Shown here: positions 17,130 through 23,800 of the stretch, piece by piece
Position numbering within the stretch: position 1 is the stretch's first letter
Layout: every line of letters starts with the position of its first letter
DNA from: Actinomycetes bacterium
GTDB lineage: Bacteria > Actinomycetota > Acidimicrobiia > Acidimicrobiales > RAAP-2
NCBI GenBank assembly: GCA_021818025.1
Contig: JAKAFH010000012.1
Coordinates: 1 to 38,132 of the forward strand
DNA length: 38,132 nt
Direction: 5' to 3'
Position numbers and translations under genes: made by a program
The notes under the pieces: generated by a model
The model's database searches: none
What the model saw: the letters and a program-made list of their open reading frames with translations, nothing else
What the model was told of the DNA's origin: nothing

Positions 17130-17959
17130 GCCGCGTCGCGATCGCGACGTCGTCGGCCATCGAGGATCCTGACGCGCCAACCCTGCTCGGCGCGCTCGCG
17201 CGCCACGGGGTGCAGGCCGACCTGGTGGCCTGGGACGCGTCGATCGACTGGGGTGACTACGACCTCGTGGTCATCCGCTCGACCTGGGACTACGTCGGGC
17301 GCCGCGACGCCTTCCTCGCCTGGGCCCGCTCCATTGACCACCTCGCCAATCCCTACGGGGCGATCGAGTACTCCTCGGACAAGCACTACCTCGCCGACCT
17401 CGCGGCGCGCGGGCACCGGGTCGTGGCGACCGAGTTCTGCGACGTGGGCGTCGAGCCGCGATTCTTCGACGGCGACGTCGTGGTCAAGCCCGCCGTCGGC
17501 GCCGGCTCGGGTGGTGCCGCGCGCTACGCCGAGGCCGAGCGCGAGGCCGCGCGCCGTCACGTCGCGCGCCTGCACCAGCTCGGCTACGACGCGCTGATCC
17601 AGCCCTACGTCGCGAGCGTGGACACGCGCGGCGAGCGGGCGGTGGTGGTGATCGACGGGGCGGTGACCCACGCGATGACCAAGGCCGCGATGCTCAACGT
17701 CGAGGAGTCCGTGCGCACGCCCCAGTTCCGCCGCGACCAAATGAGCCGGGCCGACCTCGAGCCCGAGCTGCGCGACTACGTCGAGGGCCTGCTCGCCGAC
17801 GAACGGCTCGCGGGCCTGCTCTACGCGCGCGTCGACCTCGTCGCGACCGAGGCGGGGTGGGCGTTGATGGAGCTCGAGCTCGTCGAGCCCAACCTCTTTC
17901 TCACCTACGACGAGACCGCGACCGAGCGACTCGCCCGGGCGATCGCGCGCGCGGCCTAG
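17126..17959 (+). CDS. ATP-grasp ligase, RimK/DcsG-like
   Basis: A 277-residue ATP-grasp protein, expected to couple ATP hydrolysis to joining a carboxylate to an amine or similar nucleophile through an acyl-phosphate. Seen: an N-terminal pre-ATP-grasp fold with VVIRSTWDYVGRR (near residue 47), the SDKHYLADLAARG segment, the ATP-binding strand VVVKPAVGAGSGGA (near residue 120), and the terminal metal-binding strand LMELELVEPNLFL (near residue 250). RSTWDY and LVEPxLFL are hallmarks of the family that includes the cycloserine enzyme DcsG and many uncharacterised actinobacterial proteins. It overlaps nuoN by GTGA. The substrate is unknown. Confidence 0.8.
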   Translation: MSRVAIATSSAIEDPDAPTLLGALARHGVQADLVAWDASIDWGDYDLVVIRSTWDYVGRRDAFLAWARSIDHLANPYGAIEYSSDKHYLADLAARGHRVVATEFCDVGVEPRFFDGDVVVKPAVGAGSGGAARYAEAEREAARRHVARLHQLGYDALIQPYVASVDTRGERAVVVIDGAVTHAMTKAAMLNVEESVRTPQFRRDQMSRADLEPELRDYVEGLLADERLAGLLYARVDLVATEAGWALMELELVEPNLFLTYDETATERLARAIARAA

Positions 17960-18177: not shown

Positions 18178-21177
18178 CTAGGGCTGGGCCTTGGCGCGCG
18201 CGGCTGCCGCCAGGACCTCCTCGGGCACCACGGTGCCCGGGCGGTTCGCGGGGTCGTGGGCGAGCAGCCGGCCGAGCACCGGGATCTCGGTGAGCGACTC
18301 GGCGCGCAGGGTCGCCGCGATGACCGGCACGAAGCTCTCGGCCGCGGGGTAGACGAGGTAGCGCGGCAGCCAGTTCGGGTAGTACTTCGCGTTGAACTGC
18401 CAGAGCGACTCGATGGGCAGCACCCCCGAGAGGCGCCGCAGCGCCCAGCGCTCGACGCGCGTGAAGGTTCCCTCGTCGGACTCGCCTTCGAGCACCGAGC
18501 GGAAGGCCGCGAAGTTGAGGCTGAGCCCGCGCGCGCCGCGTCCCGCCAGGTGCTCGATCGTCGAGCACAGCGCGTAGTCGATCAGCCCGTTGGGGTGCTC
18601 GCCGGGGTCCCGGCGCATCAGGTCGAGCGAGTAGCCGTTGATCGCTGGGGAGGGCACGAACTGGCAGACGGCCGCGGGCTCGCCGTCGGGGCTGGTCACG
18701 ACGGTGAGCAGCAGCCCCTTGTCCTTGGGATCGAAGAGCCGCCCGAGCATCATCGAGAAGCCCCGCTCGCCCTCGCCGCGGCGCAGCATCGAGATCAGCG
18801 AGACCAGTGCGGGGACGCGGACTGGATCGATCGCGCTCGGATCGAGGAACTCGACCGTGTAGCCCTTGCGCGCCAGTCGGGTGCAGGCCTGGCGCAGCCC
18901 CTTCATCTTGCCGCCCTCGAGGCTGAAGGTCTGACAGTCGACGATCGCCTCGTCGCCGATGTAGAGCGAGTGCAGGCCGGCGGCGTGGTAGATCGAGAGC
19001 CACTCCGCGCCCGCGCCCACGATCGCGATCGTCCAGCCGCGCGACTCGGCGAAGGCGCGAAAGCCGCTGAAGGCCTCGAGCCGCTCGGCCTCGGGGCCGA
19101 TCGGGTCGGGCGAGACGAGCGCGACGCCACCGTAGACGGCGTAGGCGACGAGCGTGTCGCGGAAGAAGAAGAACTGCTTGTCGTCGCGTAGCGCGAAGTA
19201 GTCGAGCGTGCCCCGGCCGTGGCGGCGCACGATCTCGCGCGCGCGCAGCTCGGCGAGGTGGCGCTCGCGCGTCGAGGTCGTGCTCGAGAGCCGCCGGTCG
19301 ACGACCGGGCGGGTGACGAGGTAGAGCGCCGACACGATCAGGGCCACGCCCACGGTCGTGAGCGTCGGGTTGATGAAGTCCCCGACCCGGTCGGGCAGGG
19401 GAACCGCGGTGATGCCGATGAGCCGCTCGGCGCAGCCGAGCACGACGGTGAAGTACCCCGGCAGGTGGTAGCGGCCCGACGAGGCCTCGATGCCGAGCGA
19501 GGCGGCGAGCACCACCACGACGCCGATCAGCGCGAGGGGCGGCAGCGCGGTTCGCGCGGTGGTGCGGTCGGTCGTCGCCTGGAAGTGGGACCGCACGACG
19601 AGCAGCAGCGTCAGGATCGCGACGGCGAGCAACGGCGAGACGAGGCTGCCCGCGCGCACGAGGTGGGCGATCGAGGTCGCGGCCACGACGACGACGGTGA
19701 CGGCCCAGGCGCGCCGCTGGCCGCGGCGCAGGCCGCGCGCCAGCATGATCATGAGGATGCCGGCCACCGCGGTCAAGGCGGCGGCCGACTTCGCAGCGCC
19801 GAGGGGCACGTAGGCCTCGACCACGAGCAGGCGGCTGCGCAGCGGGGGAACTGCCGTCACGATCAGGTTGACCAGGCCGTCGAGGAAGATGATCCCGCTC
19901 ACCAGGCGCCGGATGGTGCGCTGGCGGCGCTGCGCGCCGAGCCGGTCCACGCTCATCGGGAAGGGATTGCCCGTCGGCCAGGCACCGACCAGGGCGGTGT
20001 CGGTCGTGAGCTCGGGCTGGACCGGCGAGCCGGCGACCACCCGCTCTAAGAGGGTGCCGCGGCGAAGCGGGCTCTGCCCGGTGTAGAGGCGCACCTGGAC
20101 CGTGCTCGCCGCTTCGACCTCGACGATGCCGAGCCGGTCGACCGAGGTGAACACCGGTGGCAGACCGAGCAGGCCGTGCCGCTCGACGATCACGGTGCGC
20201 GACGGACCCGGGGTCGCACAGACGCCCCGGTCGAGGAACGCGAGCGCCGGGCGCGACGCGCCGCCGACGACGGCGCCGGCGCCGCCCCGCTCGGCGATGC
20301 GCCGCGCGTACTCGAGGGCGTCGACGTCCTCGACGTGGGTGCGCGCGAGGGGCTCGAAGAGATGCGGGGAGCTCGAGAGGGCACCGTGCTCGAAGCGCCG
20401 ACGTACGAGCAGTCCCGCCACGACGCCAGCGAACAGCTCCACGAGCGCGAGCACGAGCACCGTGGTGACGGTGTTGCCCCAGAAGCCGGTCGGGTGGTGC
20501 GCGTGGATCTTCAGGTGCAGCCCGAGGTGCAGGTGCCGGTCGGTGATCTTGTTCGCGATCGAGGTGAGTGTGCTCCATAGGTCGACGATCGCGAGGATGA
20601 CCACGGGAATCCAAACCCAGCCGCCCAGGCGCCGGTAGAGGGTGCGCGAGGCCACGAAGCGCGCCATCGCGTCGGGGTCCTCGAGCCGGTCGGCGTCGGC
20701 GCGGTCGCTTCGATTGGCCGGCGAGACGTCCACGACGTCACGCCCCGCGACGATCGCGACGTCGCGCACGTCGTTCGCGGTGGCGATCTGGGCCATGACG
20801 TCGTGGGCGAGCTCGACGCCGAGCGCCTCGAGGGCACCGGCCGCGCCCGGTTCGGCGAGGGCGGCGTCGTCGGCGCCGGGCAGCACGATGAAGCGGTGGC
20901 CGGGCCGCTCGGCGAAGGCGCGCAGGGCCGCGACGAGCGGCGGCAGGGCGCGCAAGGTGGCGGCGAGGAAGTCGGCGATGTCCTCGCTGCCCGTGGGGTG
21001 CAACAGGTTCCCCGCGACCACCACGGTCGCCGAGTCGTCGATGTCCTCGAGCAGGGCGATCAGCTCGCGCACTGGTCGGGCGGCGGGGTTCGTGGTCGGC
21101 GAGAGCGAGAGGTCGCTCACCACGTAGAGGTGCTGGCCATAGGGGATTGGCAGCGTGTATCGATCGGTCGCTCCCAC
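18178..21177 (-). CDS. Lysyl-phosphatidylglycerol synthase-like protein fused to a degenerate metallophosphoesterase-like domain
   Basis: A 999-residue membrane protein. The C-terminal ~340 residues (from about 650) are the DUF2156/MprF catalytic domain, which moves lysine or another amino acid from tRNA to phosphatidylglycerol. They include ALRDDKQFFFF, YGGVALVSPDPIGP, VGAGAEWLSIYHAAGL, FSLEGGKMKGLRQA and the terminal NAKYYPNWLPRY. Residues ~330-640 hold several membrane helices. Residues 1-180 look like a calcineurin-type phosphoesterase: YVVSDLSLS (18-26), VVVAGNLLH (52-60), VLPGADD (98-104). The metal motifs are altered: DxH has become DLS, GD has become GN and GNHD has become GADD. TM helices begin near 187. 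The GTG at 21177 is the only reasonable start upstream of this domain. It probably modifies membrane charge; the N-terminal role is unknown. Confidence 0.8.
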   Translation of the reverse strand: MGATDRYTLPIPYGQHLYVVSDLSLSPTTNPAARPVRELIALLEDIDDSATVVVAGNLLHPTGSEDIADFLAATLRALPPLVAALRAFAERPGHRFIVLPGADDAALAEPGAAGALEALGVELAHDVMAQIATANDVRDVAIVAGRDVVDVSPANRSDRADADRLEDPDAMARFVASRTLYRRLGGWVWIPVVILAIVDLWSTLTSIANKITDRHLHLGLHLKIHAHHPTGFWGNTVTTVLVLALVELFAGVVAGLLVRRRFEHGALSSSPHLFEPLARTHVEDVDALEYARRIAERGGAGAVVGGASRPALAFLDRGVCATPGPSRTVIVERHGLLGLPPVFTSVDRLGIVEVEAASTVQVRLYTGQSPLRRGTLLERVVAGSPVQPELTTDTALVGAWPTGNPFPMSVDRLGAQRRQRTIRRLVSGIIFLDGLVNLIVTAVPPLRSRLLVVEAYVPLGAAKSAAALTAVAGILMIMLARGLRRGQRRAWAVTVVVVAATSIAHLVRAGSLVSPLLAVAILTLLLVVRSHFQATTDRTTARTALPPLALIGVVVVLAASLGIEASSGRYHLPGYFTVVLGCAERLIGITAVPLPDRVGDFINPTLTTVGVALIVSALYLVTRPVVDRRLSSTTSTRERHLAELRAREIVRRHGRGTLDYFALRDDKQFFFFRDTLVAYAVYGGVALVSPDPIGPEAERLEAFSGFRAFAESRGWTIAIVGAGAEWLSIYHAAGLHSLYIGDEAIVDCQTFSLEGGKMKGLRQACTRLARKGYTVEFLDPSAIDPVRVPALVSLISMLRRGEGERGFSMMLGRLFDPKDKGLLLTVVTSPDGEPAAVCQFVPSPAINGYSLDLMRRDPGEHPNGLIDYALCSTIEHLAGRGARGLSLNFAAFRSVLEGESDEGTFTRVERWALRRLSGVLPIESLWQFNAKYYPNWLPRYLVYPAAESFVPVIAATLRAESLTEIPVLGRLLAHDPANRPGTVVPEEVLAAAARAKAQP

Positions 21178-21296: not shown

Positions 21297-22718
21297 TCAC
21301 TCGATGGCGGGCACCGGCCGAGGCTCGCGAAGCAGCGCCAGGGCCGGCAGGATCCCGGCGAAGGCGAGTGCCGCGGTCAGCCACCATCCGCGGTCGAAGG
21401 CCGCGAGCGCGGCCCGGGGCCCCGCCGAGCCCGAGCCCAGCACGGCCACCAACGCGGCGACTCCCAGGGCGATGCCGGTCTGGCGGATCATGTTGATCAC
21501 GCCCGAGCCCGTGGCGAAGGCGTGCGGGGGCAAGGCGGCGGTGGCGGTGGCCATCATCGTGGGCAGCACGAGGCCGACCCCGATCCCGCCGAGGATCATC
21601 CCACCGAGCACGCCGGTCACGTAGTTCGGTGCGATCGTGATCGCGAGCGCCCACCACACGCGACCCGCGCCGAAGATCACACTGCCGACGATGATCACCG
21701 CGCTCGACCCGAAGCGCCGGATCAGCCTGCCAGCCACGAGGAACGAGACGAGGGGAACCATGGCCGGCCCGGGGGCGACGGCGAGTCCCGTGCGCAGTGC
21801 GGACCAGCCCCAGGGCCCCTGGGCCCACAGCACGATCGAGAGCAGCATCGCCCCGAAGGCGCCTGAGAAGAACACGGCGACGAGCGAGGCGACCGTGAAC
21901 TCGCGCGATCGGAACAACGCGGGGTCGACCAAGGGGCTGCGGGCGCGCCGACAGTGCCACGCGAATCCCACCAGCAGGGCGAGCGCGGCCAGAAGTGTCG
22001 AGCCCGTTCGCGCCGACGTCCAACCCCAGGCGACGCCCCGAACCAGCCCGAAGGTCACGAGTCCGATGCCCGCGGTCGCGAGCACCACCCCGGCGAGGTC
22101 GGGCCGCTCGACGCTGTGGCCCGGTAGGGCGGGTAGCCGCCGCCAGCCCACCACGAGCGCGGCGATGCCGATCGGCACGTTCACCACGAACACCCATCGC
22201 CAGCTGACCGCCACCAGCAGTCCGCCAACGACCGGACCAACGGCGGCGGCGAGCCCACCGATGGCGGTCCACGCTCGGACGGCCCCCTGGCGCCGCTCGG
22301 GCTCGGAGGACGCGAGCACGAGACTCAGCGACGTCGGCGTGAGCAGCGCGGCCCCGACCGCCTGCACGACGCGAAAGCCGATCAGCATGGCGACGCTGGT
22401 CGACGCCGCGCAGGCGGCCGAGGCCGCGGTGAACACCGCCACGCCGAGGAGGAAGGTCCGGTCGCGCCGGTAACGGTCAGCGAGGCGGCCGAAGTACACG
22501 AGCAGCGAGGCGTAGACGATGGCGTAGGCGTTGAGCACCCACGACAGCTGACTCAAGTCCCGGGTGTGCAGGTCCTGGGCGATGCGCGGTAGGGCCACGT
22601 TCACGATGAACAGGTCCAGGCTCGCGAGCACCACACCGGCACAGGCGATCGCGAGCACGGCGGCCGGACTGGTTCCTCGTCTCGTTGGGGCGCCCGGTGC
22701 GTCGGTAAGTTGTGTCAT
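21297..22718 (-). CDS. MFS transporter, DHA2 (EmrB/QacA) type
   Basis: Proton-driven exporter, probably of a drug or other toxic small molecule. The 473-residue protein has about 14 hydrophobic helices, the DHA2 layout. It has the first-helix motif LASLDLFIVNVALPRIAQDL, motif A in YFGRLADRYRRDR, the motif-B-like region GFRVVQAVGAALLTPTSL and motif C in GGLAAAVGPVVGGLL. I chose ATG 22718 over a TTG 36 bases upstream because it lies 7 bases after a TAGGGT -10 box. It is divergent from an HxlR regulator that probably controls it. The substrate is not determinable. Confidence 0.88.
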   Translation of the reverse strand: MTQLTDAPGAPTRRGTSPAAVLAIACAGVVLASLDLFIVNVALPRIAQDLHTRDLSQLSWVLNAYAIVYASLLVYFGRLADRYRRDRTFLLGVAVFTAASAACAASTSVAMLIGFRVVQAVGAALLTPTSLSLVLASSEPERRQGAVRAWTAIGGLAAAVGPVVGGLLVAVSWRWVFVVNVPIGIAALVVGWRRLPALPGHSVERPDLAGVVLATAGIGLVTFGLVRGVAWGWTSARTGSTLLAALALLVGFAWHCRRARSPLVDPALFRSREFTVASLVAVFFSGAFGAMLLSIVLWAQGPWGWSALRTGLAVAPGPAMVPLVSFLVAGRLIRRFGSSAVIIVGSVIFGAGRVWWALAITIAPNYVTGVLGGMILGGIGVGLVLPTMMATATAALPPHAFATGSGVINMIRQTGIALGVAALVAVLGSGSAGPRAALAAFDRGWWLTAALAFAGILPALALLREPRPVPAIE

Positions 22719-22723
22719 GCAAC
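22713..22723. promoter_or_regulatory. Putative operator copy 1 (TGTCATGCAAC)
   Basis: 11-bp sequence repeated exactly at 22745-22755, start to start 32 bp (about three helical turns). This copy contains the exporter's start codon, so a protein bound here would cover its transcription start. The matched block extends to 15 bp with one mismatch (followed by gCAC or cCAC). The HxlR regulator is the obvious candidate ligand. Confidence 0.5.
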
Positions 22724-22725
22724 GC

Positions 22726-22754
22726 ACCCTAGTGCTGTGAATTCTGTCATGCAA
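22726..22754 (-). promoter_or_regulatory. Promoter of the MFS exporter
   Basis: On the minus strand: -35 TTGCAT (22754-22749), a 17-base spacer, -10 TAGGGT (22731-22726), then 7 bases to the ATG at 22718. This predicts a leaderless or near-leaderless transcript. The AGGGT could alternatively serve as a Shine-Dalgarno element. Confidence 0.6.
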
Positions 22755-22771: not shown

Positions 22772-23254
22772 GTGGAACGCAAGAGCTTCGCCGACATGCA
22801 CTGCTCGGTGGCCCAGTGCCTCGAGGTCGTGGGCGAGTGGTGGTCGATGCTGATCGTGCGCGACGCGTTCTTGGGCGTCACGCGCTTCGACCGGTTCCAG
22901 GAACGCCTGGGGATCTCGCGCAACATCTTGAACCAGCGGCTGGCTCGCCTCGTCGACGAGGGGATCCTTGACAAGGTCGCCTACTCCGAGCACCCGCCGC
23001 GCTACGACTACCGTTTGACCGCCAAGGGCCTCGACCTGTGGCCGGTGATCACGGCCATGCGCCAGTGGGGCGACCGATACGCCGCGCCCGCCGGCCCACC
23101 GGTGCTCGCGGTGCACGAGACCTGTGGGCACGTGTCACAGGCCGTCATGGTCTGTTCGGCTTGCGGCGAACCACTCGCGGCGCGCGACGTGCGAATCGTC
23201 TCGGGCCCCGGCGACGCCGATGGTCGCGTCGCACCGGCGTCGCGCGATTGGTAG
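22772..23254 (+). CDS. HxlR-family transcriptional regulator
   Basis: A 160-residue winged-helix DNA-binding protein. The HxlR core runs from MHCSVAQCLEVVGEWWSMLI through the recognition region FDRFQERLGISRNILNQRL to YDYRLTAKGLDLWPVI. The C-terminus has paired Cys motifs (HETCGH and VCSACGE), a zinc-ribbon-like tail common in actinobacterial members. By family it binds as a dimer and senses a small molecule or redox state. It is divergent from the DHA2 exporter with 53 bases between starts, so it is probably the exporter's repressor and autoregulated. Confidence 0.9.
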   Translation: MERKSFADMHCSVAQCLEVVGEWWSMLIVRDAFLGVTRFDRFQERLGISRNILNQRLARLVDEGILDKVAYSEHPPRYDYRLTAKGLDLWPVITAMRQWGDRYAAPAGPPVLAVHETCGHVSQAVMVCSACGEPLAARDVRIVSGPGDADGRVAPASRDW

Positions 23255-23320
23255 CGTGGGTCGATCGGTCGCTCCCTCATCGTCTCGTAGCGTTCGTCGG
23301 ACCGGCCGGGAGGAACTTCG

Positions 23321-23800
23321 ATGGCCGTGACGCGTGAGAACTGGCACTGGCGCGATAGGCCATCGACGGGCGACGCCGTCATCTTCGACATCGACGGCGT
23401 GCTCGCCGACGCGGCCGGGCGCCAGCACTACCTCGAATGGGGCGACTGGCGCCGGTTCTTCGAGGCGTGCGGGGACGACCCCGTCGTCGAGGAGATCGAG
23501 CGGCTGCTCGAGCTGCTCGATCCGGGCCTCACGATCGTGCTGTTGACGGGCCGGCCCCGGCGGGTCCAGCCGCACACCTTGGGCTGGCTCGAGCGGTTCT
23601 CGATTCGCTGGGATCTGCTCATCATGCGCGAGTACGGCGACTACACGGGCGTCGACGAGTTCAAGCGCGCGACCGTCGCCGACCTGCGCGAGCACGGCTT
23701 TGACATCCGCCTCGCGCTCGACGACGACCCGAAGAACCACGCGATGTACGTCAGCGAGGGCGTGCCCTGCATTTACATCCACTCGGGCTACTACCGCTAG
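23321..23800 (+). CDS. HAD-superfamily phosphatase
   Basis: A 159-residue cytosolic hydrolase, expected to remove phosphate through an aspartyl-phosphate intermediate. All four HAD motifs are visible: I, FDIDGVLAD (nucleophile and acid/base Asp); II, VLLTGRP; III, the lysine in DEFKRATV; IV, LALDDDPKN. There is no obvious cap domain. The small size resembles PNKP-type 3'-phosphatases and short polyphosphate-handling HADs, but no such activity can be assigned. ATG 23321 has a good ribosome site (GGGAGG). Its stop is 3 bases from the convergent hemG stop. Confidence 0.8.
   Translation: MAVTRENWHWRDRPSTGDAVIFDIDGVLADAAGRQHYLEWGDWRRFFEACGDDPVVEEIERLLELLDPGLTIVLLTGRPRRVQPHTLGWLERFSIRWDLLIMREYGDYTGVDEFKRATVADLREHGFDIRLALDDDPKNHAMYVSEGVPCIYIHSGYYR

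Follow-up and report, generated by a model that had tools for sequence, protein, structure and literature searches.

The question raised by this locus is what a phosphoesterase-like domain without its metal motifs is doing in the same open reading frame as a lysyl-phosphatidylglycerol (LPG) synthase, and whether such a protein is a real pseudoenzyme or an artefact of reading. The gene lies in what we call the window, the whole stretch of DNA analysed (38,132 nucleotides), and the protein it encodes, one of a group from uncultured actinobacteria, is referred to as the window protein.

Gene and domain organization

The initial annotation read 18178-21177 as one frame whose N-terminal part resembles a calcineurin-type metallophosphoesterase (MPE), with DLS (22-24), GN (56-57) and GADD (101-104) in place of the DxH, GD and GNHD motifs, and both the motifs and their coordinates had been read correctly. 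The features of the gene are as follows.

18178..21177 (-), whole gene, pseudo-MPE plus LPG synthase, 999 aa, GTG start, a single open frame
20638..21162 (-), degenerate MPE domain, first part, residues 6-180, from the model and fold matches
21106..21114 (-), DLS, residues 22-24, former DxH, with D22 the sole ligand kept
21007..21012 (-), GN, residues 56-57, former GD
20866..20877 (-), GADD, residues 101-104, former GNHD
20746..20748 (-), A144, former His of the fourth motif, EHG in intact relatives
20383..20637 (-), transmembrane hairpin inside the MPE domain, residues about 181-265
20494..20538 (-), His-rich hairpin loop, residues 214-228, six His, low model confidence
19978..20382 (-), degenerate MPE domain, second part, residues 266-400, from the model and fold matches
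20254..20265 (-), GGAS, residues 305-308, former GHxH
19258..19947 (-), LysX/MprF-like membrane segment, residues 411-640, about six helices
18349..19236 (-), LPG_synthase_C domain, residues 648-943, from Pfam

A GGAG sequence precedes the GTG start at a distance of just 2 bases, which is poor spacing, and the first residue of the window protein is also where the alignment starts in many homologues. The C-terminal part matches LPG_synthase_C (PF09924) at 216.1 bits against a curated Pfam cut-off of 27.5, together with solved MprF, LpiA and synthase structures, and the fusion is found at 75 loci (66 pass a length filter and the remainder are mostly truncated at contig ends), so that the annotation of an LPG synthase fusion stands. 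With the NCBIfam profiles, residues 416-971 align with LysX positions 12-577 of 1102 at 274.9 bits (cut-off 742) and residues 412-957 with MprF positions 312-836 at 223 bits (cut-off 600). The activity predicted for the window protein is the attachment of an amino acid to a membrane lipid.

Fold of the N-terminal domain

By sequence, no MPE was found in the N-terminal domain with Pfam, with NCBIfam or in a PDB search using a mostly degenerate profile; specifically, the window protein gives no PF00149 match above the cut-off and no LpxH match in NCBIfam. The model of residues 1-410, a prediction from 24 sequences, has a pLDDT of 85.6 and a pTM of 0.82; confidence is low at 215-229 and 266-269. 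Its best Foldseek match in the PDB is H. influenzae LpxH (E 1.9e-5), the sole match with E <0.001. LpxH structures fill the top 23 VIA-align rows (Z 13.4-15.1, rmsd 3.0-5.9 over 181-205 aligned residues). Polymerase B-subunits, purple acid phosphatases and Vps29 come next, from Z 13.3 down, and the lowest LpxH row (13.4) is tied with the first other MPE fold (13.3). The N-terminal domain of the window protein thus belongs to the MPE fold, as the motifs had suggested; the initial annotation had allowed for a fold unrelated to metallophosphoesterases, and the structure search returned an MPE fold.

The hairpin helices span residues 168-215 and 232-266 in the model, and the fold match and the model together place the end of the MPE domain at about residue 400, with the hairpin inserted within it. 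We rejected the reading of residues 1-180 as a whole domain because both the model and the intact relatives described below require the part beyond the hairpin. The domain therefore spans about 6-400 rather than some 180 residues, and the first membrane region, taken earlier for a tether between the two domains, is a hairpin inside one of them. A full-length model (pLDDT 64.1, pTM 0.45, 14 sequences) is too weak to show how the domains are arranged or whether they touch. According to PMC5016852, lipid X is bound in LpxH by a helical insertion domain; the ligand numbers would put this insertion between His114 and His195. Judging by the model, the hairpin of the window protein appears to occupy the place of this lipid-binding helical insertion.

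Loss of the metal site in the window protein and its retention elsewhere

The seven MPE metal ligands, as given in PMC5016852, were located in an alignment of 122 domains, each ligand in its own column, five short domains having been excluded beforehand. The window protein has one of the seven left (D22), and none of its 72 near relatives (the loci with numbers up to L092) has more than two, which agrees with the expectation that the ligands are lost throughout the clade. The N-terminal part of the window protein is a real pseudoenzyme, a fused LpxH-like MPE without its metal site. All seven ligands are present in 24 of the 122 domains (5 fused, 19 not fused), and graded counts are seen in L115 (five), L104 (four) and L102 (three). 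Among 67 full-length sequences, DxH is kept by L055 and L066 alone, GD, GNHD and GHxH are kept in none, and the GNHD position reads Gx[x]D with many variants. The initial annotation saw no GHxH, but its position can be located: VGGASR of the window protein lies opposite TGHTHR of the intact relatives, so that the lost motif is GGAS at 305-308, opposite GHTH. Other residues at the dead site are near-fixed in the near relatives, namely G306 (71/72), P323 (68/72), G324 (72/72), P325 (70/72), S326 (68/72) and R327 (68/72); residues 323-327 read PGPSR, and at 323-325 T/S-G-C predominates in the intact relatives. Of the positions in the old motifs, D22 is kept in 70/72 and D104 in 71/72.

Five fused proteins have all seven ligands and the LPG domain in one frame. 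L098 and L099 come from the window's class, L103 from its order, and L112 and L113 from one family elsewhere in the phylum; since L098 and L099 are 94% identical in the N-terminal domain, these represent at most four independent cases. The earlier picture of a pseudo-version alone is therefore incomplete. It had also been reasoned that homologues with intact ligands would point to misread motifs; such homologues do exist, but they are more distant, and hence they indicate true ligand loss rather than misreading. L098 matches PF00149 at 25.4 bits, above the cut-off of 21.5, and L099 falls below it at 19.4 bits; against the NCBIfam LpxH model L098 scores 20.8 bits, where the cut-off is 134. In the PDB, a profile of the intact type (ten sequences, nine with seven ligands and L147 with five) has LpxH as its top hit (E 1.8e-4) and Rv0805 as a close second (E 7.7e-4). 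Given the low score with the LpxH model and Rv0805 so close behind, what the ancestral enzyme acted on can only be guessed. The inserted hairpin is common to the intact relatives and the window protein, and other families of the phylum include standalone proteins of ~450-500 aa that carry the hairpin and every ligand.

The histidine-rich hairpin loop

The clade of the window protein appears, from the aligned sequences, to have gained a His-rich loop in the hairpin. The loop of the window protein has six His in residues 214-228, and the medians are 5 His in 27 residues in the near relatives (n=72, range 1-8), 1 in 25 in intact relatives (n=24), 1.5 in 17.5 in other degenerate fused relatives (n=16) and 2 in other genera of the family (n=5); as the rows are related, a Mann-Whitney p value on these counts was disregarded. 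At least four His in the loop, found in 30 of 67 rows, requires one origin on the tree, while a threshold of three requires six changes and a threshold of five requires seven. Ligand loss is older than the loop: L093, L094, L100 and L101 have degenerate sites and three loop His.

R-rich stretches lie on both flanks of the hairpin and the loop itself has three K/R, which makes the positive-inside case for an outward loop weak. The MPE parts are taken to be cytoplasmic mainly because the synthase domain of LysX and MprF is cytoplasmic, and by inference the His-rich loop would face outward. LysX2, according to PMC8974105, is an exception with its MprF-like domain outside.

Distribution and genome context

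Of 296 genomes examined in the class, 37 match the N-terminal domain profile, and in 36 of these 37 the MPE frame includes the LPG domain, the exception being G110. A wider profile has matches in 60 of 396 genomes of the phylum, a set that overlaps that of the class. All 19 genomes of the window's genus have the LPG domain. In G110 (one contig, L120/L137) an intact MPE stands alone and there is no LPG_synthase_C match; G114, a member of the same family, has the fusion. A search for the two domains as separate genes, proposed in the initial annotation, was carried out in 16 genomes with a standalone MPE (12 full-length and 4 partial matches). LPG_synthase_C was found in three of them, G335 and G376 (full) and G379 (partial), always on a different contig, which argues that the standalone MPE is independent of LPG synthase.

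Around the 75 loci, tblastn detects hemG in 64, hemH in 59, nuoN in 59, nuoM in 54, hemE in 51 and nuoL in 40, and it should be noted that loci end at flank or contig ends and that the nuo counts contain paralogue cross-hits. The fusion gene stably keeps its place between the heme and complex I genes, and this placement points to no functional partner. Upstream of the fusion gene, frame 23135-23782 (-), of 215 aa and without a Pfam match, is present in 59 of the 75 loci. The MFS transporter gene directly upstream, 21297-22754 (-), is found in 0/75 loci and is thus a local insertion. Frame 17132-17956 (+), between nuoN and the fusion gene, has weak ATP-grasp matches below the Pfam cut-offs.

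Several further observations concern the genomes themselves. The window's genome encodes a second LPG_synthase_C protein (L002, contig 104, 619-1440, in a frame of 463 aa), and among 18 same-genus relatives a second LPG_synthase_C over the cut-off is found in G654, G655, G657 and G659. L149 (G102, contig 61) is a second degenerate MPE copy reaching the contig end, with the fusion on another G102 contig, and is perhaps an assembly duplicate. PF00149 has no match anywhere in the window's genome and none in 13 of the 19 genomes of its genus; all 12 genomes sampled from the order's other families have one to eight matches. The window's genus seems poor in these usually universal phosphoesterases.

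Evolutionary history and alternative explanations

In a quick tree of 67 rows, from which rows ≥72% identical to a kept row, L139, L144 and the far MPE rows L162, L163, L168, L169 and L170 were left out, the distribution of intact and non-intact domains requires a minimum of 3 changes, and placing the intact rows on one side of a split is not rejected (AU p 0.6). The trees do not appear to separate one ligand loss from several. In a tree of the LPG domain with 39 rows, L183 falls together with the 33 MPE-fused rows in a single group (support 98), and a single clade of MPE-fused LPG domains is not rejected (AU p 0.47), with long branches among the unfused rows. Among relatives outside the genus, the MPE domain of L179 is shortened and without the hairpin and that of L183 is absent, and the synthase is kept in both, which indicates that the MPE domain is not needed everywhere. 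On these unrooted trees the simplest order is that an intact MPE was fused and that ligands, MPE or synthase were then lost lineage by lineage. The pseudoenzyme is most simply descended from an intact fusion of MPE and LPG synthase.

Could the domain be a decaying remnant, one that after the end of catalysis need only fold and anchor the protein and is drifting towards removal? The median omega in 27 non-overlapping pairs, a rough value by the Nei-Gojobori method with GC-rich codons and some pairs near saturation, is 0.26 in residues 1-180, 0.17 in the hairpin, 0.11 in residues 266-410, 0.12 in the LPG membrane segment and 0.07 in the LPG catalytic domain, with the highest single values 0.69 (1-180) and 0.82 (hairpin). 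The high median and single values in residues 1-180, the shortening and loss of the domain in L179 and L183 and the graded ligand loss in L115, L104 and L102 all fit decay. However, the open frame is maintained in full-length relatives, new near-fixed residues have appeared at the dead site, and residues 266-410 seem, from these ratios, to be constrained as firmly as the LPG membrane segment, even if residues 1-180 look the least constrained of the five. The dead MPE domain as a whole is thus under purifying selection, and we regard decay as a doubtful account of it.

It is improbable that the domain is still an enzyme of another kind, working with a single metal, with different ligands or without metal. 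The retention of D22 and D104 and the new conserved set around the old site would suit such an enzyme, but six of the seven ligands are lost in the window protein and the residues that replace ligands vary, as at the Gx[x]D position. An artefact, be it misassembly, a wrong frame or a fold other than that of an MPE, is barely credible: it would account for the failure of Pfam MPE models to match the N-terminal domain and of a mostly degenerate profile to find an MPE in the PDB, yet it is contradicted by the recurrence of the fusion across loci and across 37 genomes of the class, by the alignment of the intact relatives and by the LpxH fold matches. A frame or assembly error was rejected, the open-frame fusion recurring across relatives.

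Proposed mechanism

We consider it probable that a catalytic lipid phosphoesterase has been turned into a non-catalytic structural or regulatory module of a membrane-bound aminoacyl-lipid synthase. In the ancestor, we propose, an anchored LpxH-like phosphoesterase acted on a lipid phosphate beside a LysX-like transferase and may have made or trimmed the acceptor lipid locally. In the clade of the window protein the phosphoesterase step would be dead and the domain kept, more likely to hold or regulate the synthase. According to PMC10580965, LysX of Corynebacterium and of two mycobacteria makes lysyl-diacylglycerol. Should the intact fusions produce the acceptor lipid themselves, they would bear on the source of diacylglycerol for LysX-type enzymes.

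Control of lipid aminoacylation by the pseudo-MPE, as put forward initially, is something we infer. PMC8974105 links aminoacyl lipids with resistance to acidic environments, which makes acid a plausible signal, and acid habitats of the relatives are at most hinted at (bog, fen, palsa). Sensing of acid or metal by the module is possible. A more specific version, in which the pseudo-MPE is an allosteric sensor whose His loop detects acid or metal outside and whose dead domain relays the signal or binds uncut lipid phosphate, switching aminoacylation within one polypeptide, we consider unlikely. Were the dead version to sense acid or metal, a single protein would couple the signal directly to the control of membrane charge. 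Living lineages carry both catalytic-looking and dead forms of one fused phosphoesterase, a natural experiment on the conversion of an enzyme domain into a regulator or scaffold.

Comparison with known systems

No description of an MPE-LPG synthase fusion was found in the literature searched, which lay mostly outside subscription journals, in keeping with the initial view that the arrangement is new. Both parts are known families. Polymerase B-subunits and Vps29, which are among the fold matches of the N-terminal domain, are non-catalytic MPE folds used as scaffolds, and they are soluble and unattached to a lipid enzyme. LpxH (UDP-2,3-diacylglucosamine pyrophosphohydrolase) is the best fold match, a lipid-acting MPE with an insertion before GHxH, but the window protein lacks six of the seven ligands, its insertion is a transmembrane hairpin and it is fused to an LPG synthase. 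In the PlcP-Agt system, as described in PMC9239053, the lipid-acting MPE is PlcP, and its partner transferase makes glycolipids on diacylglycerol; unlike the window protein, this system has separate genes, an active MPE and a glycosyltransferase. LysX (bifunctional LPG synthetase/lysyl-tRNA ligase) shares the membrane segment and the synthase domain, whereas the window protein falls below the equivalog cut-off, is without the lysyl-tRNA synthetase part and has an MPE at its N-terminus. MprF (flippase/LPG synthetase) aligns in the synthase part, but again the score is below the cut-off and a pseudo-MPE replaces the flippase half. The pseudo-MPE fusion is an actinobacterial architecture of aminoacyl-lipid synthases that takes its place beside flippase-MprF and LysX-tRNA synthetase.
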